Assembly (NCBI RefSeq): GCF_000430995.1
Contig: NZ_HF952018.1
Span: 698,437 to 744,095, forward strand
DNA: 45,659 nucleotides
Reading direction: 5' to 3'
Source: Thermobrachium celere DSM 8682
GTDB taxonomy: Bacteria > Bacillota > Clostridia > Clostridiales > Caloramatoraceae
In this document: positions 10,594 through 28,117 of the stretch, piece after piece
Layout: every line of letters begins with the position of its first letter
Numbering within the stretch: position 1 is the first letter of the stretch
Position numbers and translations under genes: made by a program
Notes under the pieces: generated by a model
What the model was told of the DNA's origin: nothing
Seen by the model: the letters and a program-made list of their open reading frames with translations, nothing else
Databases searched by the model: none

Positions 10594-10655
10594 ATAGAAA
10601 AAATGGACAGATACTTGTAAATATAAGTAATTTAGATAACAAAAACATTTTTTTA

Positions 10656-10683
10656 TTGACAAAATATTCGAAAAAGATATAAA
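10656..10683 (+). promoter_or_regulatory. sigma-A promoter of the Spo0E-like gene
   Basis: A consensus -35 TTGACA at 10656-10661, 16-bp spacer and TATAAA at 10678-10683. Transcription should begin near 10690, immediately before the inverted MraZ-type boxes at 10696-10712. Confidence 0.75.
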
Positions 10684-10695
10684 ATAAAAGTCGAA

Positions 10696-10712
10696 CCTCC
10701 ACTTTTCACCAC
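10696..10712 (-). promoter_or_regulatory. Candidate MraZ operator (inverted) at the Spo0E-like promoter
   Basis: Read on the minus strand the site is GTGGTGAAAAGTGGAGG. It has two GTGG cores exactly 10 bp apart, one inside AAAAGTGG, and matches GTGGTGGAAAGTGGAG of the mraZ leader at 15 of 16 positions. It starts within about 10 bp of the predicted transcription start, a repressing position. Confidence 0.55.
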
Positions 10713-10735
10713 AAAAAATAGGGGGAGGGGTTTAA

Positions 10736-10891
10736 ATGCTTAAAGAAAAAATCGAAACTTTAAGAAATGAGTTATATGATGCTATTTTAAATAATAGATT
10801 TGATTCAATATTATTATTAAGTCAAGAATTAGATAAGCTAATAGTTGAGTATTACAATACATCAACAACAAATGCTTATCTTCCATCTTAA
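10736..10891 (+). CDS. Spo0E-like aspartyl-phosphate phosphatase
   Basis: A 51-residue protein of the Spo0E family, which dephosphorylates response regulators such as Spo0A~P and so delays sporulation. It shows the two-helix layout IETLRNELYDAI ... SILLLSQELDKLIVEYY; the SQELDxLI motif at 29-36 contains the residues that contact the receiver domain. The ATG follows GGGGGAGGGG. It has its own consensus promoter and terminator directly upstream of mraZ, and its leader holds a copy of the mraZ repeat, so MraZ control is possible. The partner Spo0A is not in the window. Confidence 0.85.
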   Translation: MLKEKIETLRNELYDAILNNRFDSILLLSQELDKLIVEYYNTSTTNAYLPS

Positions 10892-10899
10892 TCACCTAT

Positions 10900-10935
10900 T
10901 AGCCAAGGCAAATGCCTTGGCTAAAAAATTTTTTT
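10900..10935 (+). terminator. Rho-independent terminator after the Spo0E-like gene
   Basis: TAGCCAAGGC pairs with GCCTTGGCTA around AAAT, followed by AAAAAATTTTTTT. It isolates the small gene from mraZ. Confidence 0.9.
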
Positions 10936-10993: not shown

Positions 10994-11028
10994 GTGGTGG
11001 AAAGTGGAGTAAAGTGGTATAAAAGTGG
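10994..11028 (+). promoter_or_regulatory. MraZ-box direct repeats in the mraZ leader
   Basis: GTGG cores lie at 10994, 11004, 11014 and 11025 (spacing 10, 10, 11), the last three as AAAGTGG. MraZ proteins bind arrays of such short direct repeats one helical turn apart in front of their own operon; AAAGTG-type boxes are the form described in Mollicutes. The last box merges with the mraZ ribosome binding site GTGGAGG, so bound MraZ would cover both transcription and translation start regions. Confidence 0.75.
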
Positions 11029-11036
11029 AGGATAAG

Positions 11037-11465
11037 ATGTTCATAGGGGAATATACTCATGCACTTGATTCCAAAAATAGAATGATAGTACCTGCTAAAT
11101 TTAGAGAAGGTTTAGGTGGTAAATTCATAATAACCAAAGGACTTGATGGATGTCTCTATGTTTATCCTCTTGATGAGTGGAAAAAGCTTGAGGATAAGTT
11201 AAAGGAACTTCCTTTAACTAATAAAGATGCACGAGCTTTTGTTAGGTTTTTCTTTTCAGGTGCATCTGAAGTTGAGATAGACAAGCAAGGTAGAGCATTA
11301 ATTCCCCAAAATCTTATCGAATATGCAAAGATAGAAAAGGAAATAGTAAGTATAGGAGTTTCAAATAGAATTGAAATTTGGAGCAAGGAAAAGTGGATTG
11401 AATACAATGAACAAAATATAGATTATGACGAAATAGCAGAAAAAATGTCGCAGCTGGGAATATAG
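11037..11465 (+). CDS. mraZ: Transcriptional regulator and division-cluster gatekeeper MraZ
   Basis: 142 residues with the usual two SpoVT/AbrB-like swapped-hairpin halves: [19 protein letters not shown] at 5-23 and [20 protein letters not shown] near 76-95. The family forms ring-shaped oligomers that bind repeats upstream of the dcw operon and repress it. The start is the ATG at 11037, giving the canonical [12 protein letters not shown]-terminus; GTGGAGG at 11025-11031 is its SD, and an in-frame GTG there is not the start. It is the first gene of the cluster. Confidence 0.95.
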
Positions 11466-11486: not shown

Positions 11487-12416
11487 ATGGAATTTAAACA
11501 TGTATCAATAATGCTAAATGAATGTATAGAAGGTCTAAATATTAAGCCAAATGGTATATATATAGATGGTACTTTAGGTGGAGCAGGTCATTCAAGTGAG
11601 ATAGTAAAAAGGCTTAAAGATGGAATGTTAATTGGTATAGATCAAGATAAAGATGCTTTAAAAGCTTCAATGGAGAGGTTAAAGGGCTATGATAATGTAA
11701 AGTTTGTACATAATAATTTTGCCAATATAAAGGACGTATTGCTTGATTTAGGGATAGAAGGTGTAGATGGTATCCTTTTAGATTTAGGTGTATCATCCTA
11801 TCAGCTAGATACACCTGAGAGAGGATTTAGCTATATGCATGATGCAAAGCTTGATATGAGAATGAATAGAGATTCGGATATAACAGCTTATGATGTAGTA
11901 AATTTTTATACTAAAGAAAGGCTTACCGAAATTATCAAAGAATACGGAGAAGAAAAGTGGGCATCAAGAATAGCAGATTTTATAGTTAAACAAAGGGCTG
12001 TAAAGCCTATTGAAACTACATACGAGCTTGTAGATGTAATTAAAGCGGCAATACCTGCGTCAGCAAGGCGTGAAGGTCCACATCCAGCAAAGAGGACGTT
12101 TCAAGCAATACGTATAGAAGTTAATAGAGAGATTGAAATATTAGAGAAGGCTATTAACGATTGCTTAGATGTACTTAATCCTGAAGGAAGGTTATGTGTT
12201 ATCACCTTCCATTCGTTAGAGGATAGGATTGTAAAGAATGTATTTAAGTATAGACAAAATCCTTGTACTTGTCCTCCAAGTTTTCCCGTATGCGTATGTG
12301 GAAAAAAGCCAGATGTAGAAGTTATAACTAAAAAACCAATTGTTCCTTCGCAAGAGGAATTAGAATTAAATCCTAGATCAAGGAGTGCAAAGCTTAGAAT
12401 AGCAAAAAAAATATAG
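11487..12416 (+). CDS. rsmH: 16S rRNA (cytosine1402-N4)-methyltransferase
   Basis: Methylates N4 of C1402 in the ribosomal P site using SAM. The 309-residue protein has the SAM loop [13 protein letters not shown] near 28-40, [13 protein letters not shown] near 95-107, the [15 protein letters not shown] signature near 198-212 and [10 protein letters not shown] near 232-241. The C-terminal Cys-rich stretch ([16 protein letters not shown]) is normal for the family. GAGGTGG at 11472-11478 sets the ATG at 11487. It follows mraZ by 21 bp, the conserved order. Confidence 0.96.
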
Positions 12417-12445
12417 GTTCTAAAGGTGTATGGGGGTGAATATTT

Positions 12446-12910
12446 ATGGTAATGGCAAGAAAAAAAGGAAATTATGTTACTTCAGGTAATGTTGCATATA
12501 AAGTTCAAGTAAATGAAAAAAGGGAAGTTAAAAAAGTTCAAAAAACAAAACAAAAACAGAATAGAAACATTAAAGCCAAAGTTAAGGTTTTACAATTTAT
12601 TGGTATGCTATTTCTTTTTTCAGTATTAACATTATCAAGATTTGTAGTTATTTATAATATGAATTCACAGCTTAGAGATTTAAAGAAACAAATAGTTCAA
12701 ATACAAAAAGAAAATGAAAATTTACAAGTTGAACTTGCAAAAATTAACAACATTAAAAATATCGAAAATGTAGCAGTTACTAAGTACAATATGATAAACC
12801 CCAAGGCTGAAGAGGTTAGATTTGTAGATGTTAAGATGTTAGCTTCAACAGAGGAAAAGAAGGTTACAGCCTATGAAATATTTCAAAAGATAGTTGGATT
12901 TATATATTGA
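12446..12910 (+). CDS. ftsL: Cell division protein FtsL-type
   Basis: A 154-residue bitopic membrane protein: a strongly basic cytoplasmic N-terminus (1-47), one membrane segment (about 48-70) and an extracellular leucine-zipper coiled coil (about 73-105, LRDLKKQIVQIQKENENLQ). FtsL pairs with DivIC and DivIB and recruits the FtsW/PBP synthase. Sequence conservation is low, so the call rests on topology and on the place between rsmH and the penicillin-binding protein. GGGGGTGA suits the ATG at 12446 better than the ATG at 12452. Confidence 0.88.
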   Translation: MVMARKKGNYVTSGNVAYKVQVNEKREVKKVQKTKQKQNRNIKAKVKVLQFIGMLFLFSVLTLSRFVVIYNMNSQLRDLKKQIVQIQKENENLQVELAKINNIKNIENVAVTKYNMINPKAEEVRFVDVKMLASTEEKKVTAYEIFQKIVGFIY

Positions 12911-12937
12911 TTTTAATACTCTCTAGGGGGGATGTAT

Positions 12938-15076
12938 TTGTCTAAAACAACGCTATCTATGAAAAGAAGGATTGCTGTAGTATATGCAATCATAATATTA
13001 GTTCAAACGGTAATTGTTGGAAGATACGCATGGGTTCAACTTGTATGGTCTCCCCAATTACAAAGGATGGCACAAGAACAATGGACTAATAATGTGGTTA
13101 TTGAAGCAAAAAGAGGTAAAATATTAGATAGAAATGGGAATCCACTGGCTTTAAGTGGAAATGTAGATAGAATAGATGTATTTTTGAAGGATGTTATAAA
13201 TGCTGAGAAAAATAATAAAGTTACAAAGGATGAAATAGCTAGTAAATTAGCACCGCTGCTTGGAATGAGTAAAGAGGATATATTAAAAAAGCTTAATATG
13301 AAGTATAATGCTGTTACTATAAAAAGAAGGGTTGAAAAGGACATAGGAAATAAAGTAAGAGAACTAAAGTTGCCAGGGGTAATTGTATCTGAAGATACCA
13401 AAAGATACTATCCCAATGGCAATTTTTTAGCGCATATATTAGGTTCAACAGATTCAGATGGAAATGGCCGATCTGGTTTAGAACTATATTATAATAAGGA
13501 ACTTAAGGGGATACCAGGAAGATTAGTCGTTCAAGCAGATGCGTATCACAGGGAATTACCATATGAATCGGCAGTTTACGATCCGCCAAGAAATGGATAT
13601 GATTTAGTTTTAACTATAGACCAATCAATTCAATTTTTTGTTGAAAGAGCCCTTGAGCAGGGGTTAAAGGAATATAATGCCAAAAGAATAAGTGCAATTG
13701 TGATGGATCCAAAGACAGGAGAAATATTAGCAATGGCAAACAAACCTGACTTTGACCCTAATAATCCTGTAGGAGGATTAGATATTCAAGAGGCTTTAGC
13801 TAACTGGAGAAACAGAATGGTTCAAGAAGTTTTTGAGCCAGGTTCCATATTAAAGGTGGTAACTGCAGCAGCTGCATTAGAAGAAAATATAGTAAGTGAT
13901 AATGATAAATTTGTGTGTACTGGTGGTAAGATGGTAGCTGGACGAAGGATTAAATGTTGGAGAACATCAGGACACGGTACACAAACTTTTGCTGAAATAC
14001 TTCAAAATTCTTGTAACGTTGGATTTATGGAACTTGGTTTAGAGCTTGGTGCTGAAAAGCTTCATAAATATTTTGCACTATTTGGATTTGGTCAAAAAAC
14101 AGGTATAGATTTTCCAGGAGAAGAGAAGGGACTTTTGACACCAGTTTCAAAAATGGGACCAGTTGAAACAGCAAACCAAGCATTTGGTCAAGGTGTTGCT
14201 GTAACAGGAATTCAATATTTAACAGCACTTGCGGCTATTGCAAATGATGGTGTCATGATGAGGCCACACCTTTTAAAACAAGTTATATATACAGATGAAA
14301 ATGGCAATACTTCTGTAATAAAGGAATATATGCCACAATCTGTGAAACAGGTTGTATCAAAGGAAACAGCAATTAAATTAAGAGAAATATTAGAAAGTGT
14401 TGTAACAAAGGGTGCTGCTAAAAAGGCATATTTAGAAGGATATCATGTTGGTGGAAAGACAGGTACTGCACAAAAACCAAAGGAAGAAGGAAAAGGTTAT
14501 GCAGCAGGTAAATATATTTCATCCTTTGCAGCTATTGCACCTGCAAATAATCCTAAAATTGCTATATTGGTATCCATTGATGAACCTGATCCATCAAATT
14601 ATTATGCAGGAAGTACAGCAGCTCCACTTGCTAAAATTATAATTGAAGATATAATGAAATATTTAAATGTTGAGCCAGATAGTACAGCAGTTCAAGTTCC
14701 GGAAGTTGTTGTTCCTGAAGTTAGAGGTTTAAAGTTAGATGAGGCTATAAATATTTTAAAACAGTATAAGTTCGAAGCTGAAAAGCAGGGATCAGGAGAT
14801 ATCGTTTATGATATGAGTCCAAAGCCTGGGGTATCAGCAAAACAAAATACTAAAGTAATTCTTTACATGGGATATGAACAAAATAAGAATGCCAAGGTGA
14901 TTGTTCCTGACTTTAAGAATTTAACTAAGAAAGAAATACAGGATCTTGCAAAATCAATTGGTTTGAAAGTTAACATAAGTGGAGAAGGTATAGGAGCAAC
15001 TCAAGATATTCTTCCTGGACAAGAGGTTGACAAAAATACCACTATAAACGTATTATTAGAACAGCCAGAGGATTAA
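12938..15076 (+). CDS. Class B penicillin-binding protein, FtsI/SpoVD type, with two PASTA domains
   Basis: A septal transpeptidase of 712 residues: one N-terminal membrane anchor (about 13-33), dimerisation domain, transpeptidase domain with SILK (active Ser303, Lys306), SCN (358-360) and KTG (507-509), then two PASTA domains from about 590 and 654. In Bacillus, PbpB carries two PASTA repeats and SpoVD one. Here a single gene occupies the site, so it could serve vegetative division, spore cortex or both. AGGGGGGATG at 12925-12934 points to the TTG at 12938; an ATG at 12932 lies inside that site. FtsW at 18907 is the expected glycosyltransferase partner. Confidence 0.92.
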   Translation: MSKTTLSMKRRIAVVYAIIILVQTVIVGRYAWVQLVWSPQLQRMAQEQWTNNVVIEAKRGKILDRNGNPLALSGNVDRIDVFLKDVINAEKNNKVTKDEIASKLAPLLGMSKEDILKKLNMKYNAVTIKRRVEKDIGNKVRELKLPGVIVSEDTKRYYPNGNFLAHILGSTDSDGNGRSGLELYYNKELKGIPGRLVVQADAYHRELPYESAVYDPPRNGYDLVLTIDQSIQFFVERALEQGLKEYNAKRISAIVMDPKTGEILAMANKPDFDPNNPVGGLDIQEALANWRNRMVQEVFEPGSILKVVTAAAALEENIVSDNDKFVCTGGKMVAGRRIKCWRTSGHGTQTFAEILQNSCNVGFMELGLELGAEKLHKYFALFGFGQKTGIDFPGEEKGLLTPVSKMGPVETANQAFGQGVAVTGIQYLTALAAIANDGVMMRPHLLKQVIYTDENGNTSVIKEYMPQSVKQVVSKETAIKLREILESVVTKGAAKKAYLEGYHVGGKTGTAQKPKEEGKGYAAGKYISSFAAIAPANNPKIAILVSIDEPDPSNYYAGSTAAPLAKIIIEDIMKYLNVEPDSTAVQVPEVVVPEVRGLKLDEAINILKQYKFEAEKQGSGDIVYDMSPKPGVSAKQNTKVILYMGYEQNKNAKVIVPDFKNLTKKEIQDLAKSIGLKVNISGEGIGATQDILPGQEVDKNTTINVLLEQPED

Positions 15077-15080
15077 TTTA

Positions 15081-15114
15081 TTTAGCACAATATGGTTTTC
15101 CATATTGTGCTAAA
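15081..15114 (+). other. Perfect intra-operon hairpin between the PBP gene and murE-murF
   Basis: TTTAGCACAATATGG (15081-15095) is fully complementary to 15100-15114 across a four-T loop, giving a 15-bp stem. No T run follows: the next bases are ACATTAAGGAGG, the ribosome binding site of murE-murF. It is therefore not a standard terminator; RNA processing, mRNA protection or partial attenuation are options. Confidence 0.75.
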
Positions 15115-15133
15115 ACATTAAGGAGGTATGTAT

Positions 15134-17926
15134 ATGAGGTTGTTTGATATGCTTAAAGGGTTAGACTACGTCTTGATTAAGGGATCAGATCTAGAAATTG
15201 AACATATTACATATTCAAGTAGAGAGGTAGTAGAGGGAAGTTTATTTTTTTGTATAGAGGGGTTTAAAACAGATGGGCATCAATTTATTCAAGATGCAGT
15301 AAATAGAGGTGCTAAAGCTATTATTGTATCAAAGGATGTTAATGTAGAAGAGGATGTTACAATTGTAAAGGTTAAGGATACTAGAGAGGCAATGGCAATC
15401 GTATCATCAAACTTTTATGGAAATCCGTCTAAGTTTTTTAACGTAATAGGTGTAACTGGAACTAATGGAAAAACTACATCTACTTTCATGATTAAATCCA
15501 TTTTAGATGAATATAATAGAAAAACAGCACTTTTAGGTACTATATATAATATAATAGGTGAAAAGATAGAAGAAGCTAAAAGAACAACACCAGAATCAAT
15601 GGATTTACAGAGACTTTATAGTGAAATGAAAAATAGTGGAATTACGGATTGTATAATGGAGGTATCTTCTCACTCCCTTGAGCTTAAAAGAGTCTATGGT
15701 GTTGAATTTAAGGTAGGAATATTTACCAATTTAACTCAAGATCATCTTGATTTTCATAAAACTATGGAAAACTATTTCAATGCTAAGATGAAGCTATTTG
15801 AAAATAGTGAAAACTGCATTATAAATATAGATGATGAATATGGAAAAAGAGCAGCTGAAATGTTTAAAAATAAAAGGGTAATAACATATGGAATAGATAA
15901 CAGAGCTGATATAATGGCAGAAAATTTAAAAATAGATTCAGATGGAAGTCAATTTGATTTAGTTATTAATGGTGTTAAACGAAGAGTAAAACTTCATCTA
16001 CCTGGAAAATTTAATGTTTACAATGCTTTAGGATGCATTGGAGCAGCAATTGCTTTAAATATACCAGTTGATATTGCAATTAAAGGATTGGAAAAATTAC
16101 AGTCTGTACCAGGTAGAAGTGAAAAGATAGTTTCACATGCAGGGTTTACAGTTGTTATAGATTATGCACACACTCCAGATGGAATAGAAAATATTTTGAA
16201 GGCGGCAAGAGAATATACAAGTGGAAGGCTAATAACTCTATTTGGATGTGGTGGAGATAGGGATAAAGGCAAAAGACCACTTATGGGCAAGGCTGCTGGA
16301 GAACTTTCAGATTTTTGTATAATAACTTCTGATAATCCAAGAAGTGAAGATCCTATGGCTATAATAAATGATATTATTCCTGGTATTGAGCAGACTGGTT
16401 GTAAATATATAGTTATTGAGGATAGAAAAAAGGCTATAGAATATGCAATAAAAAATGCTAAAAAGGGAGATGTAATAGTAGTTGCAGGAAAAGGTCATGA
16501 AAAATATCAGATACTTAAAGACAGAACGATTGAATTTGATGAAAGAAAGATAGTAGAGGGTTTTTTGAAGGAAATAATTACAACAGATGACATTATTAAG
16601 GCTACTTGCGGGAAAGTGTTTAATTTAAATGAAAATATTATTATAAACAAAATAACTACAGATAGTAGAAAGGTAGAAAAAGGGGATGTATTTATAGCTT
16701 TAAAGGGAGAAAAATTTGATGGACATGATTTTTTAGGAGAGGTAAAAGATAAAGGTGCAGTTTGTGCCGTTGTTTCAAAATTTATACCAAACGTTGATAT
16801 TCCTCAGATATTAGTTGATGATACATTAAGGGCTTATAAAGAAATTGCAAGATATTATAGAAGAAGATTTGATATACCTATAGTAGCAATTACAGGAAGC
16901 TGCGGAAAAACAACAACTAAAGAGATGATTGCATCTGTATTATCTAGTAGATTAAATGTTCATAAAACTGAAAAGAACTTTAACAATGAGATAGGACTTC
17001 CAATGACAATATTAAATTTAAAGTCTAAACATGAAGCATCGGTTGTTGAAATGGGTATGAACCATTTTGGCGAAATTGAAAGTCTTTCTTATGTAGCTTT
17101 GCCTAAAATAGCTGTTATAACAAATATAGGTACAGCACATATTGAAAATTTAGGCAGCAGAGAGAACATACTAAAGGCAAAAATGGAGATTACAACATAC
17201 TTCAATGAAGAAAATATATTAGTTATAAATTCTGATGATGATATGCTCTCTACAGTTAAAACTGATAAATATAAAATAATAAAATTTGCAATAAATAGTG
17301 ATGCTGATTATAAAGCTTATGATATAATAGATTTAGGACAGGATGGAATGGAATTTAAATGTAATATATCTGGAGTTGAAAGAAGATTTAAAGTTAATTT
17401 GCCAGGACAACACAATATATATAATGCTTTATCTGCAATAGCTGTTGGAGATATACTTGGTCTACAATATGAAGATATATATAATGGAATATTAAATTTT
17501 AATCCTGGTAGCATGAGGATGAACATAGTTGAGCTTAAGGATGATATTAAGTTTATTGTAGACTGCTATAATGCAAATCCTGATTCAATGAAGGCAGCAA
17601 TTGATGTTTTAAATAAATTTAATGGGCGAAGAATTGCTGTTTTAGGAGATATGTTCGAATTAGGTGAATTTTCAAAGGCTATGCACAAGGAAGTTGGAAA
17701 TTATTTGGTTGATAAATGCGATGTATTAATTGCTATAGGAGAATTTGCAAAGGAATATTATAATGAAGCAATGGGTAAGATTGAATGCTACTACTTTATA
17801 AATAAAGAAGAGGCTTTAGATTTTATAAAGAATTTTATAAAAAGAGATGATGTAGTATTATTTAAGGCTTCAAGAGGAATGAAGCTTGAATATATATCAG
17901 ACAGCTTGATAGAGCAAAGGAAGTGA
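15134..17926 (+). CDS. murE-murF: Bifunctional MurE-MurF ligase (natural fusion)
   Basis: One uninterrupted 930-residue frame joins two consecutive peptidoglycan ligases. Residues 1-480 are MurE, which adds meso-diaminopimelate to UDP-MurNAc-L-Ala-D-Glu: ATP loop GVTGTNGKTT with Lys113 and the meso-DAP selector DNPRSEDP at 400-407. Residues 481-930 are MurF, which adds D-Ala-D-Ala: TTDSRKVEKGDVFIALKG at its N-terminus, ATP loop TGSCGKTTTKE with Lys592, and DCYNANPDSM further on. The junction (FLKEIITTDDIIKATCGK) has no linker, stop or internal start with an obvious SD. AGGAGG at 15121-15126 selects the ATG at 15134. Confidence 0.95.
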   Translation: MRLFDMLKGLDYVLIKGSDLEIEHITYSSREVVEGSLFFCIEGFKTDGHQFIQDAVNRGAKAIIVSKDVNVEEDVTIVKVKDTREAMAIVSSNFYGNPSKFFNVIGVTGTNGKTTSTFMIKSILDEYNRKTALLGTIYNIIGEKIEEAKRTTPESMDLQRLYSEMKNSGITDCIMEVSSHSLELKRVYGVEFKVGIFTNLTQDHLDFHKTMENYFNAKMKLFENSENCIINIDDEYGKRAAEMFKNKRVITYGIDNRADIMAENLKIDSDGSQFDLVINGVKRRVKLHLPGKFNVYNALGCIGAAIALNIPVDIAIKGLEKLQSVPGRSEKIVSHAGFTVVIDYAHTPDGIENILKAAREYTSGRLITLFGCGGDRDKGKRPLMGKAAGELSDFCIITSDNPRSEDPMAIINDIIPGIEQTGCKYIVIEDRKKAIEYAIKNAKKGDVIVVAGKGHEKYQILKDRTIEFDERKIVEGFLKEIITTDDIIKATCGKVFNLNENIIINKITTDSRKVEKGDVFIALKGEKFDGHDFLGEVKDKGAVCAVVSKFIPNVDIPQILVDDTLRAYKEIARYYRRRFDIPIVAITGSCGKTTTKEMIASVLSSRLNVHKTEKNFNNEIGLPMTILNLKSKHEASVVEMGMNHFGEIESLSYVALPKIAVITNIGTAHIENLGSRENILKAKMEITTYFNEENILVINSDDDMLSTVKTDKYKIIKFAINSDADYKAYDIIDLGQDGMEFKCNISGVERRFKVNLPGQHNIYNALSAIAVGDILGLQYEDIYNGILNFNPGSMRMNIVELKDDIKFIVDCYNANPDSMKAAIDVLNKFNGRRIAVLGDMFELGEFSKAMHKEVGNYLVDKCDVLIAIGEFAKEYYNEAMGKIECYYFINKEEALDFIKNFIKRDDVVLFKASRGMKLEYISDSLIEQRK

Positions 17927-17936
17927 GGTTGTAGAC

Positions 17937-18896
17937 ATGGAACTTACAATTTTTGCAACTATACTATCATTTATAATCGTATTATTAATCGGACCAATTG
18001 TTATACCTCTATTAAAAATATTTAAGTTTGGACAAAACATAAGGGAAGAGGGGCCTAAGAGCCATCTAAAGAAGGCAGGCACTCCTACCATGGGTGGATT
18101 AATGTTTATAATAAGCTTAATAATAAGCGTATTAACCCTATCTAGCAAAATAAGTAGTGCCCTATGGATTGCTCTTATTACAACTGTAGGATATGGATTA
18201 ATAGGGCTATTGGATGACAGCTTAAAAATAATAAGAAAGAAGAATTTAGGACTTAGAGCCTATCAAAAGCTTATAGGTCAAATTACGTTTGCTTTAATTC
18301 TATCAATCTATGCTTATAACAATTCCGATATTGGAAGCTTTGTTCATATACCCTATACAACAAAGTTTATAAATTTGGGTATGTTCTATATACCATTTAT
18401 GGTGTTTGTAGTAGTGGGAACTACAAATGCAGTTAACTTAACTGATGGATTAGATGGATTAGCCTCAAGTGTGACATTGATAATATGTGTGTTCTTTGCT
18501 ATTGTAACCTATGGATTAAAAAAATATGATTTATCACTATTCTGCGGAGCGTTAGCTGGAGGTCTTTTAGGCTTCTTAAAGTATAATGCGTATCCTGCAC
18601 AGGTATTTATGGGAGATACTGGTTCATTAGCATTAGGTGGGGCTATATCTGCACTTGCAATACTTTTAAAGATGCCTTTTATTCTTGTTATTGTTGGATT
18701 AATATATGTAGTTGAAGCCTTATCAGTAATAATACAGGTTGTAAGCTTTAAGCTTACAGGAAAAAGAGTATTTAAGATGGCCCCACTACATCACCACTAT
18801 GAACAGTTAGGATGGCATGAAACAAAGATAGTTGCATGGTTTAGTATATTTACAGCTATATTTTGTTTGATTGGTTTTTTAGCAATTAGTTTTTAG
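17937..18896 (+). CDS. mraY: Phospho-N-acetylmuramoyl-pentapeptide-transferase
   Basis: Transfers phospho-MurNAc-pentapeptide to undecaprenyl phosphate, making lipid I. It is a 319-residue polytopic membrane protein with the family motifs GPKSHLKKAGTPTMGG (40-55), DDSLK near 95, NAVNLTDGLDGLA near 161-173, FMGDTGSLALGG near 222-233 and the His-rich loop MAPLHHHYEQLGWHE near 279-293. It starts 10 bp after murF and is followed 10 bp later by ftsW; murD, usual here in many Firmicutes, is absent. Confidence 0.96.
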   Translation: MELTIFATILSFIIVLLIGPIVIPLLKIFKFGQNIREEGPKSHLKKAGTPTMGGLMFIISLIISVLTLSSKISSALWIALITTVGYGLIGLLDDSLKIIRKKNLGLRAYQKLIGQITFALILSIYAYNNSDIGSFVHIPYTTKFINLGMFYIPFMVFVVVGTTNAVNLTDGLDGLASSVTLIICVFFAIVTYGLKKYDLSLFCGALAGGLLGFLKYNAYPAQVFMGDTGSLALGGAISALAILLKMPFILVIVGLIYVVEALSVIIQVVSFKLTGKRVFKMAPLHHHYEQLGWHETKIVAWFSIFTAIFCLIGFLAISF

Positions 18897-18906
18897 GGGG
18901 TTAACA

Positions 18907-20019
18907 ATGAAGGAAAAAAGAGGTCCCATAGATTTTGTGCTATTTGCAGATATATTAGTGCTGTTATCAATAGGTGTTTGTATGGTTTTTAGTGCAAGTA
19001 TGCCTGAAGGGGAAAGGTTCTATGGTTCTCCATATTATTATTTAATCAGGCAAAGTATTTGGGCAACATTAGGCGTTATTGTAATGCTTTTTACATCTAA
19101 TATAGATTATAAATTTTGGAGAAATAAAAATATATTATCAATAGGATTTATAGTAGTTGTCTTGATGCTTATTGCTGTATTTTTATTTCCACCAGTAAAG
19201 GGTGCAAGAAGATGGCTGGGTTTTGGTTTTGCTAAAATTCAGCCATCAGAAATAGCTAAGATATTTATTGTTTTATTTTTATCTAATATGATTGATAAAA
19301 AAGGTCCAGAAAAAATGAAAAGTTTAACTAAAGGTCTGTTGCCAGGATTGATTGTAATGGCTATATTTGTAGGACTTATAATTAAGGAACCAAACTTAAG
19401 TACCTCTGTAATTATTGCAACTGTTTCAATGATACTTTTATTTGTGGGTGGAGCTCAAATTAAATATATGATAGGACTATTTTTACTAGGAGTTGCGGCG
19501 GTAGCAGGGGCTATTCTAGTTGAACCTTATAGATTAAGAAGACTTGTTGGTTTTATGAATCCATGGGCAGATAAGCTTGATACAGGATATCAAGCAATAC
19601 AGTCGTTGTATGCTTTAGGTTCTGGTGGATTGTTTGGAAGAGGTTTTGGATTTTCAATGCAAAAATTTCATTACATTCCTGAAGCACAGAATGACTTTAT
19701 ATTTTCAATATTAGGAGAAGAATTAGGATTTATAGGTACTTTTTTTGTGATTATATGTTTTTCAATTTTAATATGGAGAGGAATTAGGATTGCAATTAAT
19801 TGTAAAGATAAATTTGGAAGTTTAGTTGCTTTAGGAATAACTTCAATAATAGCAGTTCAGTCTTCTGTAAACTTTCTAGTTGTTTCTTCTTTTATGCCTG
19901 TAACTGGTGTAACATTACCACTAATTAGTTATGGTGGTTCATCATTACTTTTTACAATGGCAGGTTTAGGTATATTACTAAATATTTCAAGATATATAAC
20001 AAAGGATGGAGTTGATTGA
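18907..20019 (+). CDS. ftsW: SEDS peptidoglycan glycosyltransferase, FtsW/SpoVE type
   Basis: Polymerises lipid II at the septum together with the class B PBP. It is a 370-residue membrane protein with about ten segments; the SEDS signatures KGARRWLGFGFAKIQPSEIAK (near 98-118), the GLFGRGFGFSMQKFHYIPEA region and the C-terminal PLISYGGSSLLFTMAGLGIL are clear. It could equally be named SpoVE; no second copy is in the window to compare. AGGGGG precedes the ATG at 18907, and murG follows one base after the stop. Confidence 0.93.
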   Translation: MKEKRGPIDFVLFADILVLLSIGVCMVFSASMPEGERFYGSPYYYLIRQSIWATLGVIVMLFTSNIDYKFWRNKNILSIGFIVVVLMLIAVFLFPPVKGARRWLGFGFAKIQPSEIAKIFIVLFLSNMIDKKGPEKMKSLTKGLLPGLIVMAIFVGLIIKEPNLSTSVIIATVSMILLFVGGAQIKYMIGLFLLGVAAVAGAILVEPYRLRRLVGFMNPWADKLDTGYQAIQSLYALGSGGLFGRGFGFSMQKFHYIPEAQNDFIFSILGEELGFIGTFFVIICFSILIWRGIRIAINCKDKFGSLVALGITSIIAVQSSVNFLVVSSFMPVTGVTLPLISYGGSSLLFTMAGLGILLNISRYITKDGVD

Positions 20020-20020
20020 T

Positions 20021-21121
20021 ATGAAGGTAATAATTACTGGTGGGGGTACAGGAGGACATATTTATCCAGGTGTAGCAATAGCTAAAAAGCTTCAGGAAAA
20101 GTATAAAAAAGTTGAGATTTTATTCGTAGGTAGTGAAAATGGATTAGAGGGAAAACTTGTACCTAAAGAAGGGTATAAAATAAAATTGATACCTGTCGAA
20201 GGTTTGAATAAAAAATTTTCATTTAGAACAATTAAATCGGTTATTAAGGTAATTAAAGGTTTTGGCAAGGCAGGAAAAATAATAAACGAATTTAAACCTG
20301 ATATTGTGATAGGAACAGGGGGATATGTTTGTGGCCCAGTTGTTATGCAGGCTGCTTTAAAGGGTATACCTACTATTATTCATGAACAAAATGCTTTTCC
20401 TGGGGTTACAAACAAGCTATTATCACATTTTGTTGATAGAATTGCTATATCATTTGTTGAATCTGAGAAGTATTTTCCAAAAAACAAAGTTGTTTATACA
20501 GGCAATCCAGTAAGAAGCCAAATATTAAATTCAAACAAAGAAAAGGCAATACAATCCCTAGGTTTAGAAAAGAACAAACCAATACTTCTTGTGGTTGGAG
20601 GAAGTAGAGGGGCTAAAAATATCAATAATGCTGTTGTTGATATTTTAGGAGATTTAAACAATAACAATATACAGCTTATATTCATAACAGGAGAAAACAA
20701 TTATAAAGAGGTTATGGATAAAGTAAATTCTAAGTATAACCTATCTGTTATGAAGGGTATTAAGATATTACCATATGCATTTAATATGCATGATGTTCTT
20801 GCTGCAAGTGATTTAATTATAAGTAGAGCAGGTGCAACAATTATTTCTGAAATAACTGCACTAGGAAAACCTTCTATTTTAATACCTTCACCATATGTTG
20901 CAAATAACCATCAAGAATACAATGCGCGAGCACTTGAAGAAAAGGGAGCATGTATTGTAATTAAAGAGTCACAGCTTAATGGAGATATATTAAAGGATCA
21001 AATAATAAATATCATTAATAACAAAGAAATACTTAAAAATATGTCAATTGCATCAAAGAGGCTTTCAAAAATTGATGCAGCAGATAAAATTGTAAACATA
21101 ATAGAAGAATATGTAAAATGA
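20021..21121 (+). CDS. murG: UDP-GlcNAc:lipid I N-acetylglucosaminyltransferase MurG
   Basis: Converts lipid I to lipid II on the inner membrane face. 366 residues of GT28 fold: glycine-rich GGGTGGHIYPG at 7-17, GTGGYVCGP near 95-103, HEQNAFPG near 124-131, the UDP-GlcNAc site VVGGSRGAKNIN near 188-199 and SRAGATIISEITALGKPSIL near 266-285. The start is the ATG at 20021, giving MKVIITGGGTGG; an upstream in-frame ATG would overlap ftsW. A short hairpin at 21123-21144 follows. Confidence 0.96.
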   Translation: MKVIITGGGTGGHIYPGVAIAKKLQEKYKKVEILFVGSENGLEGKLVPKEGYKIKLIPVEGLNKKFSFRTIKSVIKVIKGFGKAGKIINEFKPDIVIGTGGYVCGPVVMQAALKGIPTIIHEQNAFPGVTNKLLSHFVDRIAISFVESEKYFPKNKVVYTGNPVRSQILNSNKEKAIQSLGLEKNKPILLVVGGSRGAKNINNAVVDILGDLNNNNIQLIFITGENNYKEVMDKVNSKYNLSVMKGIKILPYAFNMHDVLAASDLIISRAGATIISEITALGKPSILIPSPYVANNHQEYNARALEEKGACIVIKESQLNGDILKDQIINIINNKEILKNMSIASKRLSKIDAADKIVNIIEEYVK

Positions 21122-21122
21122 T

Positions 21123-21144
21123 GTTGCAGGATAATTCCTGCAAC
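21123..21144 (+). other. Short hairpin between murG and divIB
   Basis: GTTGCAGG pairs with CCTGCAAC across ATAATT, followed by only TTT. It is too weak for an efficient terminator and may give partial attenuation or set an mRNA end. Confidence 0.5.
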
Positions 21145-21172
21145 TTTAATACGAAGGAAAAGGATGATTAAT

Positions 21173-21922
21173 ATGGAGGCGAAATTAAAAGTTAGAAGAA
21201 AGAAAAGAAAATTGGTTTCATTTATAATAATTTTGATAATTTTATTGACATCAATTTTAACAGCACTAAAATCTGATTATTTTAAAATAAAGGAAGTAGA
21301 AGTTAAAAATAATAATTTAGTAACTAGAGATGAAATTATAATACTTGCAAATATAATAGGAGAAAATATATTTTTTCTTGACAAAAATAAGGTAAAGGCG
21401 AATATATTAAACAATCCTTATGTTAAGGATGTTAAAATAGATAGAAAGTTTCCAGCTAAGATTGTAATTAATATAGACGAAAAGGATATAAAGGGAATAA
21501 TTAGGGTGAAAAATTATTATGTTGACATAGATAGTGAAGGTAGAATGGTGCATACAGTTAATAAATTTCCAAATGGTAAGCTAATTTATCTAGAAGGTAT
21601 AGATGCAAAAGATTATGTGTATAATGATTATGTTGCAAAGGATGAAACAAAACGAAAAGCAGTTGTTGAAATGTTAAAGCTGTTTAATTATCCAGAGATA
21701 AAACAACAAATAGAGAAGGTTGATGTAGCAGACCCATTTAATGTTAAAATAATAACAAAAAGAGGAATAGACATATTAATTGGAGATTGTTCAAATCTTG
21801 ATTATAAAATATCCTTTGCATTTACTCTTCTAGAGAGTCAAGACCTAAAGGATAAAAAAGGGTGGATTGAGGTAAGTTCGGATGGTACTGCAGTATTTAA
21901 AGAACAAGAGGTGATACAATGA
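21173..21922 (+). CDS. divIB: Cell division protein DivIB/FtsQ
   Basis: A 249-residue bitopic protein: basic cytoplasmic N-terminus (VRRKKRKL), one membrane segment (about 15-35) and a POTRA domain (about 36-105, FKIKEVEVKNNNLVTRDEI ... NPYVKDVKI) followed by the FtsQ beta domain. It forms the DivIB-DivIC-FtsL divisome subcomplex. The ATG at 21173 is chosen because AAGGATG precedes it by six bases; the ATG at 21164 lies inside that site. Its stop overlaps the next start by four bases (ATGA). Confidence 0.92.
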   Translation: MEAKLKVRRKKRKLVSFIIILIILLTSILTALKSDYFKIKEVEVKNNNLVTRDEIIILANIIGENIFFLDKNKVKANILNNPYVKDVKIDRKFPAKIVINIDEKDIKGIIRVKNYYVDIDSEGRMVHTVNKFPNGKLIYLEGIDAKDYVYNDYVAKDETKRKAVVEMLKLFNYPEIKQQIEKVDVADPFNVKIITKRGIDILIGDCSNLDYKISFAFTLLESQDLKDKKGWIEVSSDGTAVFKEQEVIQ

Positions 21923-22623
21923 AAAAGATTAAATCCCAGTTAAGCTTAGCCTTTATTTGTTTGATTTTAGGTTTTATGATCACCTATCAGTATAGATTAT
22001 CCTACTCAAAGAAAAACATCATTGATACAAGGCAGATAAGTGATCTAGTTAAGCAAAATGAGCTTTTAAAGAAACAGAAGGATGAGTTAGAGGCAAAAGT
22101 TAAAGAATATCAAAGTAAAGTTGATGAAATAGAAAAGGCAGTTACAATGGGAAATGAGGCAACTGAAAAACTAAAGATTGAGCTGGATAATTTAAGAATA
22201 TTATCTGGTTTAAATGATGTTGAGGGAAGTGGAATCATTATTACACTTTCACCCGCCCAAAGTTTGCAAAGTAATTATCAAAATCAAATTTATGCAACAG
22301 ATCTTTTAGATATTGTAAATGAATTGAATGCTTCAGGTGCTGAAGCTATATCTATAAATGAAGAAAGATATACATCAAGAACACAAATAAGAGAAGCTGG
22401 GGCTTATATAAAAATAAATGATACAAAGTTTAGCCCACAGGATAAATTTATTATAAAGGCAATTGGAGATTCAAACATATTAGAGGGAGCATTTAAAATG
22501 CCTGGAAACATATTAGAACAAAACTCTGATAGAATAAGTTATAAAATAGAAAAGTCCAATGATATAAAGATAGTAAAGTTCAGCAAGAAGATAGAATACA
22601 AATATGCAAGGCCAGGAAGGTGA
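21919..22623 (+). CDS. DUF881-family protein (YlxW/YlxX-like), first copy
   Basis: 234 residues: an N-terminal membrane anchor (about 8-25), a coiled coil (about 38-90, LLKKQKDELEAKVKEYQ) and the extracellular DUF881 domain (GSGIIITLSPAQ ... LLDIVNELNASGAEAISINE ... YIKINDTKF). In Bacillus two such genes flank sbp between divIB and ftsA, as here. The biochemical function is unknown; location implies a division or sporulation-septum role. The start overlaps the divIB stop (ATGA), implying translational coupling. Confidence 0.88.
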   Translation: MKKIKSQLSLAFICLILGFMITYQYRLSYSKKNIIDTRQISDLVKQNELLKKQKDELEAKVKEYQSKVDEIEKAVTMGNEATEKLKIELDNLRILSGLNDVEGSGIIITLSPAQSLQSNYQNQIYATDLLDIVNELNASGAEAISINEERYTSRTQIREAGAYIKINDTKFSPQDKFIIKAIGDSNILEGAFKMPGNILEQNSDRISYKIEKSNDIKIVKFSKKIEYKYARPGR

Positions 22624-22627
22624 TTAT

Positions 22628-22984
22628 ATGATACCATTAATCGGATTAATAATAGGTGTTATATTGGGGATTTTTTTAAAAATTGACATACCCAATTCAT
22701 TAACAGCATATATTCCTGTTGCTATATTGGCAGCATTAGACTCAGTATTTGGTGGGGTAAGAGCATCCCTTGAAAAAAAGTTTGATTCCGACATATTTAT
22801 ATCAGGTTTTTTTAGTAATATAATTTTAGCCATTGGGCTTACTTATTTAGGAGATGCATTAAATGTTCCTATATATTTAGCAGCCGTTGTAGTTTTTGGC
22901 AGTAGATTGTTTAATAATTTTGCAATAATAAGAAGAATATTATTACAAAAGGGTAGGATTAAATTAAAGGGTAAGGAGGAGTGA
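22628..22984 (+). CDS. sbp: Small basic protein Sbp (DUF1290)
   Basis: A 118-residue membrane protein with about four segments and the conserved VAILAALDSVFGGVRASLE stretch near 34-52, ending in a basic tail (KGRIKLKGKEE). The family always accompanies DUF881 genes in the dcw region; the function is unknown. AAGGTGAT at 22617-22624 sets the ATG at 22628. Its stop lies inside the SD-start region of the following DUF881 gene. Confidence 0.9.
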   Translation: MIPLIGLIIGVILGIFLKIDIPNSLTAYIPVAILAALDSVFGGVRASLEKKFDSDIFISGFFSNIILAIGLTYLGDALNVPIYLAAVVVFGSRLFNNFAIIRRILLQKGRIKLKGKEE

Positions 22985-22986
22985 AT

Positions 22987-23705
22987 ATGAAAATAAATGA
23001 AACAAAGCTTCTCCTTATGCTTTCAGGTTTATTTACAGGTTTAGTTATAACATCTTTTTTGGTTAAATCTACACCAAATAAAACTATTGTTTTAACTTAT
23101 AAGGACTACCAAAATTTAAAGCATGATAACTTTTTATTAAATAGAGAAATATCTGTGTTATATAAAAATTTAATTGAACTACAAAGTAAATATAACGAAT
23201 ACATGTCTAGTGAAAAGACAAATAAAAAAGTATTAGAGGATTTAAAAAAGAATATAATGCTGCAAAGATGCTGTATGGAATTGAACCAGTTATAGGTCCA
23301 GGAGTTATTGTTAAGTTAGATGATGCAAAAAAATCAAATTATGAGAGTGATTTTGACTTGTGGAATAGCATAGTACACGATTTTGATATTAGGCAAATTA
23401 TAATAGATCTTAAAAATGCTGATGCAGAGGCAATAGAGGTAAATGGATATAGAGTGGTTTCTACGACTTCTATAACTTGTGAAGGACCTATAATAATGAT
23501 AAATGGAAATTATATAACTCCTCCATTTACAATAAAAGCGATTGGAGATAAGGATGCACTTTATTATGCTATGTATAATCCAGATAGCTGGTATAAAACT
23601 ATGGAATTAAGAGGTTTAAGATTAAGCTTAAAAAGAAGTGATAATATAAGTGTAAGTGGAATAAATGACGGAATTGAAATTAAATACTTAAAGCCTAAAA
23701 AATAA
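22987..23705 (+). CDS. DUF881-family protein, second copy, split by a -1 frameshift at A_AAA_AAG
   Basis: The zero frame from ATG 22987 (AGGAGG at 22974) encodes a membrane anchor and coiled coil, then runs off after 102 residues, stopping at 23293-23295. The conserved DUF881 domain (GPGVIVKLDD, LKNADAEAIEVNGYRV, IMINGNYITPPF) continues in the -1 frame to 23705. The shift point is the heptamer A AAA AAG at 23244-23250 in exact codon phase; slippage there gives DLKK-EYNAAKMLYGIEP and a normal 239-residue protein. AGAGG lies four to five bases upstream. Programmed frameshifting, transcriptional slippage, a real mutation or a missed A in the homopolymer would all explain it. Confidence 0.75.
23244..23250 (+). 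promoter_or_regulatory. Slippery heptamer A_AAA_AAG within the DUF881 gene
   Basis: Codon phase is TTA AAA AAG, the arrangement used for -1 frameshifting in bacterial dnaX and IS elements. The SD-like AGAGG at 23235-23239 is closer than the usual roughly 10 nt. I see no convincing downstream stem-loop. Confidence 0.5.
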
Positions 23706-23895
23706 ATAAAAAGTATCTAATGTTTTTTAGAAAAATTACGATAAATGTATAGAATAATAAATATGTTGATAAATACATCTTATATTTATTCTTAAAAGAT
23801 GTTACAATATATATGTATTATGCTTTAATATTATGATAATTAGAATATGAATTTAATTAAAAAATTTTATAATGTTAAAAGGGAATTTACTTTTT

Positions 23896-23923
23896 TTGTT
23901 GAATTATATTAATAATATATAAA
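23896..23923 (+). promoter_or_regulatory. Weak candidate promoter before ftsA
   Basis: TTGTTG at 23896-23901 and TATAAA at 23918-23923 with a 16-bp spacer. The 241-bp gap at 23706-23946 contains no gene and is extremely AT-rich; this is the best of several weak matches, so ftsAZ probably has its own promoter but its position is uncertain. Confidence 0.25.
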
Positions 23924-23946
23924 AAAGTTGGGAGGTTAAATTTTAA

Positions 23947-25209
23947 ATGAGCAATATAGTTGCAGCCTTAGATATAGGTTCATCTAAAGTTTGTGTAGTT
24001 ATAGCAGAAATGAAGAATAAGCAGTTTAATGTTTTGGGTGTTGGGACCTCCGAATGTAAAGGTGTTAAAAAGGGGATTATCGTAGATATAGATACAACAG
24101 TTGAAGCAATAATAAATGCTCTAAAGCAAGCAGAGCATATGTCAAATAAGAAAATCAAATCAGTTTTTGTAAATATCCCTGGAGGATATACAAATCTATA
24201 TAAAACAAAGGGCGTTATTGCTGTTTCAAGAGATGACAAGGAAATAACAAAAGAGGATGTTTCAAGAGTTCTTGAAGCTGCAAAGGTTGTAGCTATTCCA
24301 CAGGATAAGGAAATAATTGACATAATACCTGAACAATATATAGTTGACGGTTATGATGAAATAAGAGATCCTATCGGAATGGTTGGTGTTAGATTAGAGG
24401 TAGATGCAAATTTGATAGTTGCATCATGTACAACAGTTCAAAACATAATAAGAAGCATTCAAAAGGCAGGACTTCAATGTGATGGAATAATATTAGAGCC
24501 ATTAGCAACATCAAGCGTTGTTTTAAGCGATGATGAAAAGGAATTAGGAGTTGCTCTTGTAGATGTTGGTGCAGAGACAACAGATATATCTGTATTTAAA
24601 AAGGGAGCATTGGTTTATACAAAGGTGATTCCAGTTGGAGGAAATCATATAACAAATGATATTTCCATCATATGTAAGATAACTTCTACTGATGCAGAAA
24701 AAATTAAGAGACAATATGGTGTTGCTACTTCAAATTTAATACGAAATAATGATATAATAAAGATAAACAGCATCGGCGGTAAATCAGAAAAGGAAGTATA
24801 CTTAAAGGATATAGCAGAGATCATGGAAGCTAGAATTTCAGAAATGCTATATCTAGTAAGAAAAGAGCTTGAAGATAAGAACCTATATAATTCAATATCT
24901 GCTGGTGTTGTTATTACTGGAGGAGGACTTTTTAACATAAAAGGAATTCAAGATACTGCTCAGGCAAGCTTTGAATTGCCTGTTAGATTTGGATATCCTA
25001 ATTATATAGGTGTTGCAAATCCTGTTTACTCAGCATCAGCTGGTATAGCATATTATGCATTAAAGGAAAAGAAAGCAAGTACTGTAGAGTATGGACAGAC
25101 AGTTTCAAAAAAGGAGGAAGTATATCAAGTAGAAGAGGAAGAAGAAGACGTATCAAGATCATCAGGAATCATAGAAAAGATCAAAGAATTCTTTGCAGAC
25201 TTTTTCTAA
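23947..25209 (+). CDS. ftsA: Cell division protein FtsA
   Basis: Actin-like ATPase that tethers FtsZ to the membrane. 420 residues: phosphate-1 motif ALDIGSSKVCVVIAE at 7-21, the 1C domain insertion, phosphate-2 VALVDVGAETTDISV near 199-213, the adenosine motif VITGGGLFNIKG near 321-332, and a C-terminal amphipathic membrane helix (GIIEKIKEFFADFF). An acidic linker (EVYQVEEEEEDV) precedes that helix. GGGAGG at 23930-23935 sets the ATG. ftsZ follows 21 bp later. Confidence 0.95.
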   Translation: MSNIVAALDIGSSKVCVVIAEMKNKQFNVLGVGTSECKGVKKGIIVDIDTTVEAIINALKQAEHMSNKKIKSVFVNIPGGYTNLYKTKGVIAVSRDDKEITKEDVSRVLEAAKVVAIPQDKEIIDIIPEQYIVDGYDEIRDPIGMVGVRLEVDANLIVASCTTVQNIIRSIQKAGLQCDGIILEPLATSSVVLSDDEKELGVALVDVGAETTDISVFKKGALVYTKVIPVGGNHITNDISIICKITSTDAEKIKRQYGVATSNLIRNNDIIKINSIGGKSEKEVYLKDIAEIMEARISEMLYLVRKELEDKNLYNSISAGVVITGGGLFNIKGIQDTAQASFELPVRFGYPNYIGVANPVYSASAGIAYYALKEKKASTVEYGQTVSKKEEVYQVEEEEEDVSRSSGIIEKIKEFFADFF

Positions 25210-25230
25210 AATACAAAAGGGGGTATAATT

Positions 25231-26307
25231 GTGCTAGATTTTGATTTTGAAATTGAATCAGGTGCTCAAATAAAAGTAGTAGGTGTAGGCGGCGGTGGAA
25301 ATAACGCTGTTAATAGAATGATAGAGTCAGGACTTTCAGGTGTTGAATTTATTTCAGTTAATACAGATAGACAAGCATTATATCTATCAAAGGCTGGCCA
25401 AAAAATACAAATTGGAGAAAAGATGACAAAAGGGCTTGGAGCAGGAGCTAATCCTGAAATTGGTGAGAAGTCAGCAGAAGAAAGTAGAGAAGAAATTATG
25501 CAGGCTCTTAAGGGTTCAGACCTTGTATTTATAACTGCTGGTATGGGTGGAGGTACTGGTACTGGTGCAGCACCTGTAATAGCAGAAATAGCAAAAGAGA
25601 TGGGTATATTAACTGTAGGAGTTGTAACAAAGCCATTTATGTTTGAAGGTAGAGTTAGAATGATAAATGCTGAAAAGGGAATAGCTAAGCTTAAGGAAAA
25701 GGTAGATACACTTGTTACAATTCCAAATGACAGGCTTTTACATGTAGTTGATAAAAAGACACCAATTACTGAAGCATTCAGAATTGCAGATGATGTATTA
25801 AGACAAGGTGTTCAAGGTATATCAGACTTAATAGTAAAGCCAGGTTTAATTAACCTAGACTTTGCTGACATAAAAACAATTATGTTAAATAGAGGTCTAG
25901 CCCATATGGGTATAGGTAGAGCATCAGGTGAAAACAGAGCAATTGAAGCAGCAAAGATGGCTATATCAAGCCCACTTCTTGAAACAACTATAGATGGAGC
26001 AACAGGGGTATTACTAAACATTACAGGTGGTTCAAACTTAACACTATTTGAAGTAAATGAAGCCGCAGAACAAGTAAGACAGGCGGCAGACCCAGATGCT
26101 AATATCATATTTGGTACAGCATTAGATGAAAGTTTAGGAGATGAAATAAGAATAACTGTTATTGCGACTGGTTTTGACAAGATAACAGAAATAAAGGCAA
26201 CTCCAAAGAATAAAGAAGAAGTTATAGAAAAGGTTGCAGTTACTATAGAAGATGATTCAGACTTAGATATTCCTCCATTTATAAGAAATCAAAGAGCAAG
26301 AAGATAA
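25231..26307 (+). CDS. ftsZ: Cell division GTPase FtsZ
   Basis: Tubulin-like GTPase forming the Z ring. 358 residues starting at GTG, behind AAAAGGGGG. Visible are [14 protein letters not shown] at 17-30, the tubulin signature [16 protein letters not shown] near 107-122 and the T7 loop [11 protein letters not shown] near 207-217. The C-terminal peptide is [13 protein letters not shown], the tail that binds FtsA and SepF; both partners are in the window. The linker is short, so the protein is at the small end of the family. Confidence 0.97.
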
Positions 26308-26335
26308 GATGTCCAAAGGGACATCTTATTTTTTT
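26304..26335 (+). terminator. Rho-independent terminator after ftsZ
   Basis: TAAGATGTCC pairs with GGACATCTTA across a short loop, followed by TTTTTTTA. It ends the dcw transcript, so the sporulation genes that follow depend on a separate promoter. Confidence 0.92.
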
Positions 26336-26409
26336 ATGTTTTTAGACTTATTTTTATTGTATAAAAAAATCATAAAATGTATTTATTTTTTATATATATA
26401 GATTATGAT

Positions 26410-26442
26410 ATGACAAAATTTATGCTTATAAGGTTGTATAAT
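26410..26442 (+). promoter_or_regulatory. Candidate Spo0A-type promoter of spoIIGA-sigE
   Basis: ATGACA (26410-26415) and a perfect TATAAT (26437-26442) are 21 bp apart. The Bacillus spoIIG promoter is known for an abnormally long 22-bp spacer with Spo0A boxes on its -35. Here TATGACA at 26409-26415 matches the 0A box TTCGACA at 5 of 7 positions. The reading is an analogy plus a partial match. Confidence 0.4.
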
Positions 26443-26477
26443 TAAAATAAAAAGTTGTCCACGGAGGTGGGCATAAT

Positions 26478-27368
26478 ATGAATATTATATATATTGACGT
26501 TCTTTTGATTGAAAACGTTTTAATTAATTTTTTGATTTTATATGTTGTTTACAGGTTTTGCAGAGTCAAGAGAAATCTATCCTACTTGTTTTTATCATCA
26601 CTTATTGGGGCATTATATGTATTTATAGTCTTTTTCCCAGCGCTTAGTATGTTTTATTCGGCACTTATGAAGTTTTGTGTATCTATACTTATGATTATAA
26701 TAGCATTTTGGCCTAGAACATTTAGGGCATTTTTGAAGATGCTGTTAATATTTTATGGTGTTGCGTTTTTCCTGGGAGGAGCTATTATATCAATATTTTA
26801 CTTAGTAAATGATAAAATGGTTAGTTCAGTGAATGGGGTTATGCTTTTGAATAAAATTTCGTCTAAGTATTTAATATATGGAGTTATTGTGTCAATATTT
26901 GTTGTTAAGATATTATTTGATGTAGTTGATAGGTATTTTGATATAAAAAATAGGACAGTTCAAATTACAGTTATCAACAATGAAAAATCTATTAAATTAA
27001 CGGCACTTCTTGACACAGGTAATTGTTTGAAGGATCCAATTTCTGGTCATCCAATTATAATAGTTGATATTAAATATATTGCTGATATACTGCCAAATGA
27101 AGTAATTGATTTAGTTATGAATAATAGAGATATTGCTGATATAAAGGACTTTGAAATAAGTAAGAGAATAAGAATAATTCCATATATGACAATAGGTGTT
27201 GAAAACGGGCTTTTAATTGGATACAGAGTTGATTATGTTTATGTAATTTCTAAAAATAAAGTAGGAGTAATTAAAGATCCTATATTAGCTCTATCAAGAA
27301 GAAACTTGTCAACAAAGGATGATTATCAGGCAATTGCTTATCCAGAAATAATAAGTTGGGAGGTATGA
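26478..27368 (+). CDS. spoIIGA: Pro-sigma-E processing aspartic peptidase
   Basis: A membrane-embedded aspartic protease at the sporulation septum that removes the pro-sequence of sigma-E when triggered by SpoIIR from the forespore. 296 residues: five hydrophobic segments in about 5-150, then a cytoplasmic protease half with the catalytic motif ALLDTGN, Asp179, and LSRRNLS near the end. GGAGGTGG precedes the ATG. The substrate gene sigE starts 5 bp after its stop. Confidence 0.95.
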
Positions 27369-27372
27369 ATGT

Positions 27373-28098: not shown

Positions 28099-28117
28099 TA
28101 TATCATGAATAAATAAT

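Follow-up and report, generated by a model that had tools for sequence, protein, structure and literature searches.

Organization of the locus

In the window, the whole 45.7-kb stretch of DNA that was analysed, a small Spo0E-like gene stands directly upstream of mraZ, and a pair of MraZ-type boxes in inverted orientation lies at the predicted transcription start of this small gene (Table 1). Its 51-residue product matches PF09388 with 46.9 bits (cut-off 23; E 2.8e-12), in agreement with the family assigned in an earlier sequence-only reading, and is related to the solved chain 2bzb_A (E 4.7e-6). The SxxxD motif, described as the signature of the Spo0E-like family (PMC11115286), is present as SQELD, and its S, Q, L, and D are invariant across nine aligned sequences (the window's protein included, the broken frame of genome G001 left out). 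The genome containing the window (G000) has four more Spo0E-like matches besides the mraZ-adjacent gene, and it encodes Spo0A (433.8 bits with TIGR02875, cut-off 200). Full-length Spo0A is found in 15 of the 17 genomes of the Caloramator family, and a sixteenth (G015) carries it in two pieces, one of them above the cut-off.

The promoter at whose predicted transcription start the same reading had placed the boxes was recovered as near-consensus, with 11 of 12 consensus letters, and its TTGACA stands 76–80 nt ahead of the start codon in all ten family genomes with the Spo0E-like gene. A promoter scan returned 6 promoter-like sites compared to 4.6 in shuffled sequences, a count that gives no support by itself; the promoter in Table 1 is the top-scoring of these sites. 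The Spo0E-like gene is set apart from mraZ by a predicted terminator. Searches of the leader region 10550–11100 for known RNA families gave two matches, both far under the gathering scores. Upstream of the Spo0E-like gene lies a 72-aa frame (10315–10533), for which no family match was found in Pfam or NCBIfam; similar sequence is likewise placed in the Caloramator loci L002 and L004.

The window's MraZ is 95–97% identical to Caloramator MraZ, its nearest named relatives, and MraZ chains are contained in PDB. The dcw cluster in the window runs on into spoIIGA, sigE, and sigG. The genes listed for this stretch in Table 1 are its identified members; other frames, as far as they were searched, had no family.

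Table 1. Features of the mraZ/Spo0E-like locus, in window coordinates
Feature	Position	Strand	Basis or remark
Predicted sigma-A type promoter of the Spo0E-like gene, TTGACA / 18 nt / TAAAAT	10656..10685	+	11/12 consensus letters
Inverted MraZ-type box pair, GTGGTGAAAAGTGG(AGG)	10696..10712	-	At predicted transcription start of the Spo0E-like gene
Ribosome-binding region, AGGGGGAGGGG	10720..10730	+	Potential pairing in the leader RNA with the box's CCTCC; folds, weak covariation
51-aa Spo0E-family (PF09388) gene, SQELD motif	10736..10891	+	Profile match and alignment of nine sequences
Predicted intrinsic terminator between the Spo0E-like gene and mraZ	10899..10924	+	1 found versus 0.2 expected
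mraZ leader boxes, GTGGTGGAAAGTGGAGTAAAGTGG, three GTGG with 10-bp period	10994..11017	+	Pattern and box model
Fourth GTGG, overlapping the mraZ ribosome-binding site	11026..11029	+	Sequence
mraZ, first gene of the dcw cluster	11040..11465	+	TIGR00242, 175 bits, cut-off 98
dcw cluster: rsmH, spoVD, murE/murF fusion, mraY, murG, ftsA, ftsZ, then spoIIGA, sigE, sigG	11487..28942	+	Family matches

Sequence specificity of the inverted box pair

The minus strand at 10696–10712 reads GTGGTGAAAAGTGGAGG, with its GTGG cores 10 bp apart. Elsewhere in the window, this sequence is best matched by the mraZ leader at 10994 (15/17 letters, 15/16 over the first 16), so that both the match and the core spacing first noted from the letters were confirmed; the third-ranking place matches at 13/17 letters. 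The final 11 letters of the minus-strand sequence, AAAAGTGGAGG, recur without mismatch in the ribosome-binding region of mraZ at 11021. There are two full boxes at the Spo0E-like gene and three to four in the mraZ array, and a further GTGG with a one-base overlap (GTGGTGG) is found in the Spo0E-like leaders of G001, G009, and G004 (in the last as ATGGTGG).

MraZ sites in Burkholderia and, as cited there, in E. coli consist of repeated GTG cores located downstream of the –10 element and over the transcription start (PMC7761207). The inverted site likewise consists of GTG(G) direct repeats one helical turn apart, with GTGG at positions 0 and 10 exact in 7 of 10 genomes and carrying one mismatch in another, and its place is past the –10 and across the transcription start, promoter and start both being predicted. 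This shared layout argues for repression of the Spo0E-like promoter by MraZ.

The pattern GTGGN6GTGG occurs three times in the window (0.32 expected; three reached in 1 of 100 shuffles), each time at the mraZ/Spo0E-like locus. Across the 2.64-Mb genome there are 17 occurrences, and the backwards control gives 16; by itself the loose pattern is therefore not significant genome-wide, and the weight rests on position and the full core. Six of the 14 other places in the genome were inspected, and all six are within frames of at least 80 aa. The stricter core GTGGNGNAAAGTGG, which was picked after the inverted site had been seen, gives 31 matches in the 17 family genomes: 24 belong to mraZ, 7 to the mraZ-linked Spo0E-like gene, and none lies elsewhere; its backwards control gives 3. 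Among the matches listed for GTGGN3AAAGTGG in G008 and G010 there are five further places, three of them within frames of at least 80 aa. Two such sites in G008, a family member without a linked Spo0E-like gene, lie outside frames of that length (L140, 1075–1088, and L141, 1092–1105) and are possible further candidate MraZ targets.

A box model was trained on 31 distinct mraZ boxes from the six family genomes without the Spo0E-like gene and from other groups, and the Spo0E-like leaders were kept out of the training to lessen circularity. Over both strands of the whole window, the model ranked the two mraZ pairs highest (25.8 and 23.1 bits), followed by the inverted site (21.9), a fourth place at 18.25 bits, and a remainder of at most 11.3. 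The fourth place, GTTGAGGGAAGTGG at 22219–22232 in the dcw-cluster frame 21919–22623, is the strongest box-like place in the window off both promoters. Seven of the ten Spo0E-like leaders scored 21.9–25.8 bits, well above this unrelated place, and G004, G003, and G002 scored 18.6, 6.6, and –7.5 bits, respectively. The box of G004 barely exceeds 18.25 bits and is marginal by itself, which does not apply to the other boxes.

Conservation in the Caloramator family

mraZ was found in 16 of the 17 family genomes, the miss being G013, which is 64% complete. In 10 of these 16, from four genera, the Spo0E-like gene is directly upstream of mraZ. Seven of the ten have an unaltered inverted core GTGGTGRAAAGTGG on the minus strand, just past the –10; G004 carries one mismatch, the site of G003 is degenerate and reduced to half by the loss of the first GTGG, and G002 has no inverted box and retains the gene, the promoter, and the mraZ boxes. 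The earlier expectation that relatives with the mraZ boxes and the small gene would keep the inverted copy was thus borne out, with at most one mismatch, in eight of ten genomes and failed in G002 and, through degeneration, in G003; four genera have conserved the box pair where the Spo0E-family gene starts. Within 1.2 kb of mraZ, no inverted pair was found in any of the six family genomes without the Spo0E-like gene. In G001 (L008) the Spo0E-like frame upstream of mraZ is apparently broken near its start next to a perfect inverted box, which appears to reflect either a draft-assembly error or decay.

When degenerate G003 and box-less G002 are set aside, five of the remaining eight genomes have an inverted core that fully agrees with their own first mraZ box pair, and in three the two differ by one letter. 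In an alignment of these eight leaders, the core columns are invariant and the flanks vary. A tree of MraZ and RsmH placed g1 and g2 as sisters (support 100), g5 with box-less g4 (86), and g6 deep with weak support. The box-bearing genera do not form one clade in this tree, whose backbone is weak, so that the site either was ancestral in the family and lost with the gene or was gained more than once. The initial description of the site as copied from the mraZ leader is not retained, since nothing in the data favours a duplication above a separate origin.

Pairing of Spo0E-like genes with mraZ in other families

A survey of the class covered 80 of 82 genomes with a Spo0E-like match, and 77 of those 80 also had mraZ. 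Upstream of mraZ and in its orientation, a Spo0E-like gene is found at a distance of up to 500 bp in 13 genomes and up to 3.5 kb in 19, which belong to five other families by tool-assigned labels (f23, f24, f49, f55, and f72); no Spo0E-like match in any other arrangement was found within 10 kb of mraZ on the same contig. The close linkages, all with no inverted box, are those of G385, G272, G490, G343, and G321 (f23), G214, G273, G366, and G247 (f24), G396 and G498 (f72), G509 (f55), and G449 (f49). In the others, G526, G302, G367, and G277 (f55) and G480 and G258 (f49), the gene is 1.5–3.3 kb upstream.

None of the 19 linked leaders contains an inverted box, with a best box-model score of 3.4; the leader of G273 was shifted, its start having been placed at an internal codon. 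A search for opposite-strand pairs of exact GTGGTGRAAAGTGG within 1 kb, of a kind that would miss boxes with other spacers, found none outside the Caloramator family in 391 genomes of the class and 225 of the order. These results indicate that the box was added locally to a gene pairing of wider occurrence, and this pairing of the Spo0E-like gene with mraZ is probably older than the box. A separate observation concerns L148 (G498, f72), a Spo0E-like leader linked to mraZ that carries three inverted GTGG cores with 14–15 bp spacing just after the –10. Since its spacing departs from 10 bp, it scores only –1.1 in the box model, and it is possibly an independent variant of the inverted-box arrangement.

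Evaluation of alternative explanations

The bases of the inverted site might also act in RNA, through mutual antisense regulation of the Spo0E-like and mraZ mRNAs. As the two boxes are located in 5′ leaders, the beginning of the Spo0E-like transcript is complementary to the leader of mraZ; this complementarity arises only from the inverted orientation and extends in Caloramator to the mraZ ribosome-binding site. Leader–leader duplexes reach –24.1 to –33.4 kcal/mol in nine of ten genomes (z –2.2 to –5.2 versus shuffled leaders) and –15.8 kcal/mol (z –1.7) in the tenth, G002, and a G-U pair remains at all three single-letter differences between the boxes. However, any inverted copy of a protein site would yield the same complementarity, the shared sequence shrinks to a 14-letter core, its flanks differing in g2 and g6, and only Caloramator (g1) shows the match to the ribosome-binding region of mraZ; mutual antisense control is considered unlikely. 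It is also improbable that the conserved bases are the 5′ arm of a hairpin hiding the ribosome-binding site of the Spo0E-like mRNA, in which case the likeness to an MraZ box would follow because GTGG resembles ribosome-binding sequences and its complement opposes them. The box bases do pair with the ribosome-binding region in nine of ten minimum-energy leader folds, two of five consensus pairs change on both sides among eight leaders, and the hairpin is retained in G003 despite the loss of half the box, but the consensus energy is only –1.27 kcal/mol (covariation term –0.44), z ranges from –0.5 to –2.8 in the nine leaders with this pairing, G009 forms a different stem, and most invariant columns fall in the loop of the consensus fold. 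Leader pairing and the hairpin could nevertheless act as a second layer on MraZ control. A G-quadruplex, proposed at the S. aureus mraZ promoter (PMC11796246), was set aside because the G-rich strand is the template strand at the Spo0E-like site.

Binding of MraZ without repression, in which the protein activates the Spo0E-like gene or is loaded by the site close to its own promoter, would fit the placement of the two sites, which in all family genomes with an exact box are on opposite strands and about 275–400 bp apart. More FtsZ accompanies MraZ overexpression in Mycoplasma gallisepticum (PMC8475190), so MraZ need not repress and the sign of control is uncertain; however, the box coincides with the transcription start predicted for its own promoter, where repressor sites are typically found, and a non-repressing role is given little credence. 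That the site is functionless, an old chance inversion carried along, would accord with the loss of the box and not the gene in G002, but 8 of 10 genomes, from four genera, retain the core with no more than one mismatch amid changed surrounding bases, which makes this a very remote prospect, and conservation together with specificity renders a chance occurrence unlikely. The points against an operator are its two full boxes only, the loss in G002, the half-lost site of G003, the marginal box of G004, the broken frame of G001, the 0/19 boxes in other families, the post hoc pattern, and the use of the same bases by the RNA readings. The inverted site is best read as a second, two-box candidate MraZ operator, and this reading is likely.

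Possible joint control of division and sporulation

To our knowledge, how spore formers link the sporulation decision to the state of the division machinery is an open question, and we know of few MraZ targets outside dcw. The model proposed here builds on the sequence, position, conservation, and specificity of the inverted site, the family of the adjacent gene, and the presence of Spo0A. MraZ, the product of the first dcw gene, would bind GTGG repeats one helical turn apart at the start of its own operon and, on inverted repeats of this kind, at the start of the Spo0E-like gene next to it. At both promoters it would block RNA polymerase. With MraZ low or inactive, the division genes and the Spo0A brake would both be on, allowing growth and no spores; with MraZ active, both would be down and Spo0A would be freed. 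From these features we infer the binding of MraZ, its repressing action, and the consequence for spore formation.

Repression of dcw by MraZ has been reported in Mycoplasma genitalium (PMC8475190) and, as cited in PMC7761207, in E. coli. That MraZ has targets beyond dcw is shown by E. coli, in which its overexpression reduces mioC (PMC4446571). The Spo0E of C. difficile binds to Spo0A and holds sporulation back, a spo0E mutant forming about twice as many spores, and it acts on RstA too (PMC11115286). The sequence-only reading had Spo0E proteins draining the sporulation phosphorelay; "phosphorelay" is Bacillus wording and is not retained.

In the heat-loving Caloramator bacteria and related genera, the conserved inverted MraZ signature suggests that one regulator may couple dividing to the decision to form spores. 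In its wider form, the proposal is that MraZ would serve as a joint division/sporulation switch in the Caloramator family, one repressor holding the dcw operon and the Spo0A brake in the same state, upon a class-wide Spo0E-like/dcw pairing that would be controlled otherwise in other families; we regard the case for this as evenly balanced. A literature search in 5.39 million papers, with few subscription papers covered, found no paper with both MraZ and Spo0E, nor one with dcw and Spo0E. The occurrence of Spo0E-like genes beside mraZ in five other families of the class, without the box, is a finding of the present analysis. The locus offers a conserved two-site, single-regulator hypothesis and points to a wider Spo0E-like/dcw pairing across Clostridia.

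Comparison with known systems

Compared to the Spo0E-family regulators of Bacillus and C. difficile (PMC11115286), the window's gene likewise encodes a small protein with the SxxxD motif in a genome with Spo0A. It differs in adjoining dcw, and control by MraZ is unmentioned in the passages considered. Compared to E. coli MraZ at the mioC promoter (PMC4446571), the likeness is the action of MraZ on a promoter outside dcw, which is predicted in the present case; the target and pathway are different, as the E. coli gene is beside the replication origin and unrelated to sporulation. A third close counterpart is the array of MraZ boxes upstream of mraZ itself, with which the inverted site shares the 10-bp period of GTGG, the placement past the –10 and over the start, and a near-identical core, whereas it lies on the opposite strand, has two full boxes instead of three or four, and would have as its target a Spo0E-like gene with its own terminator.
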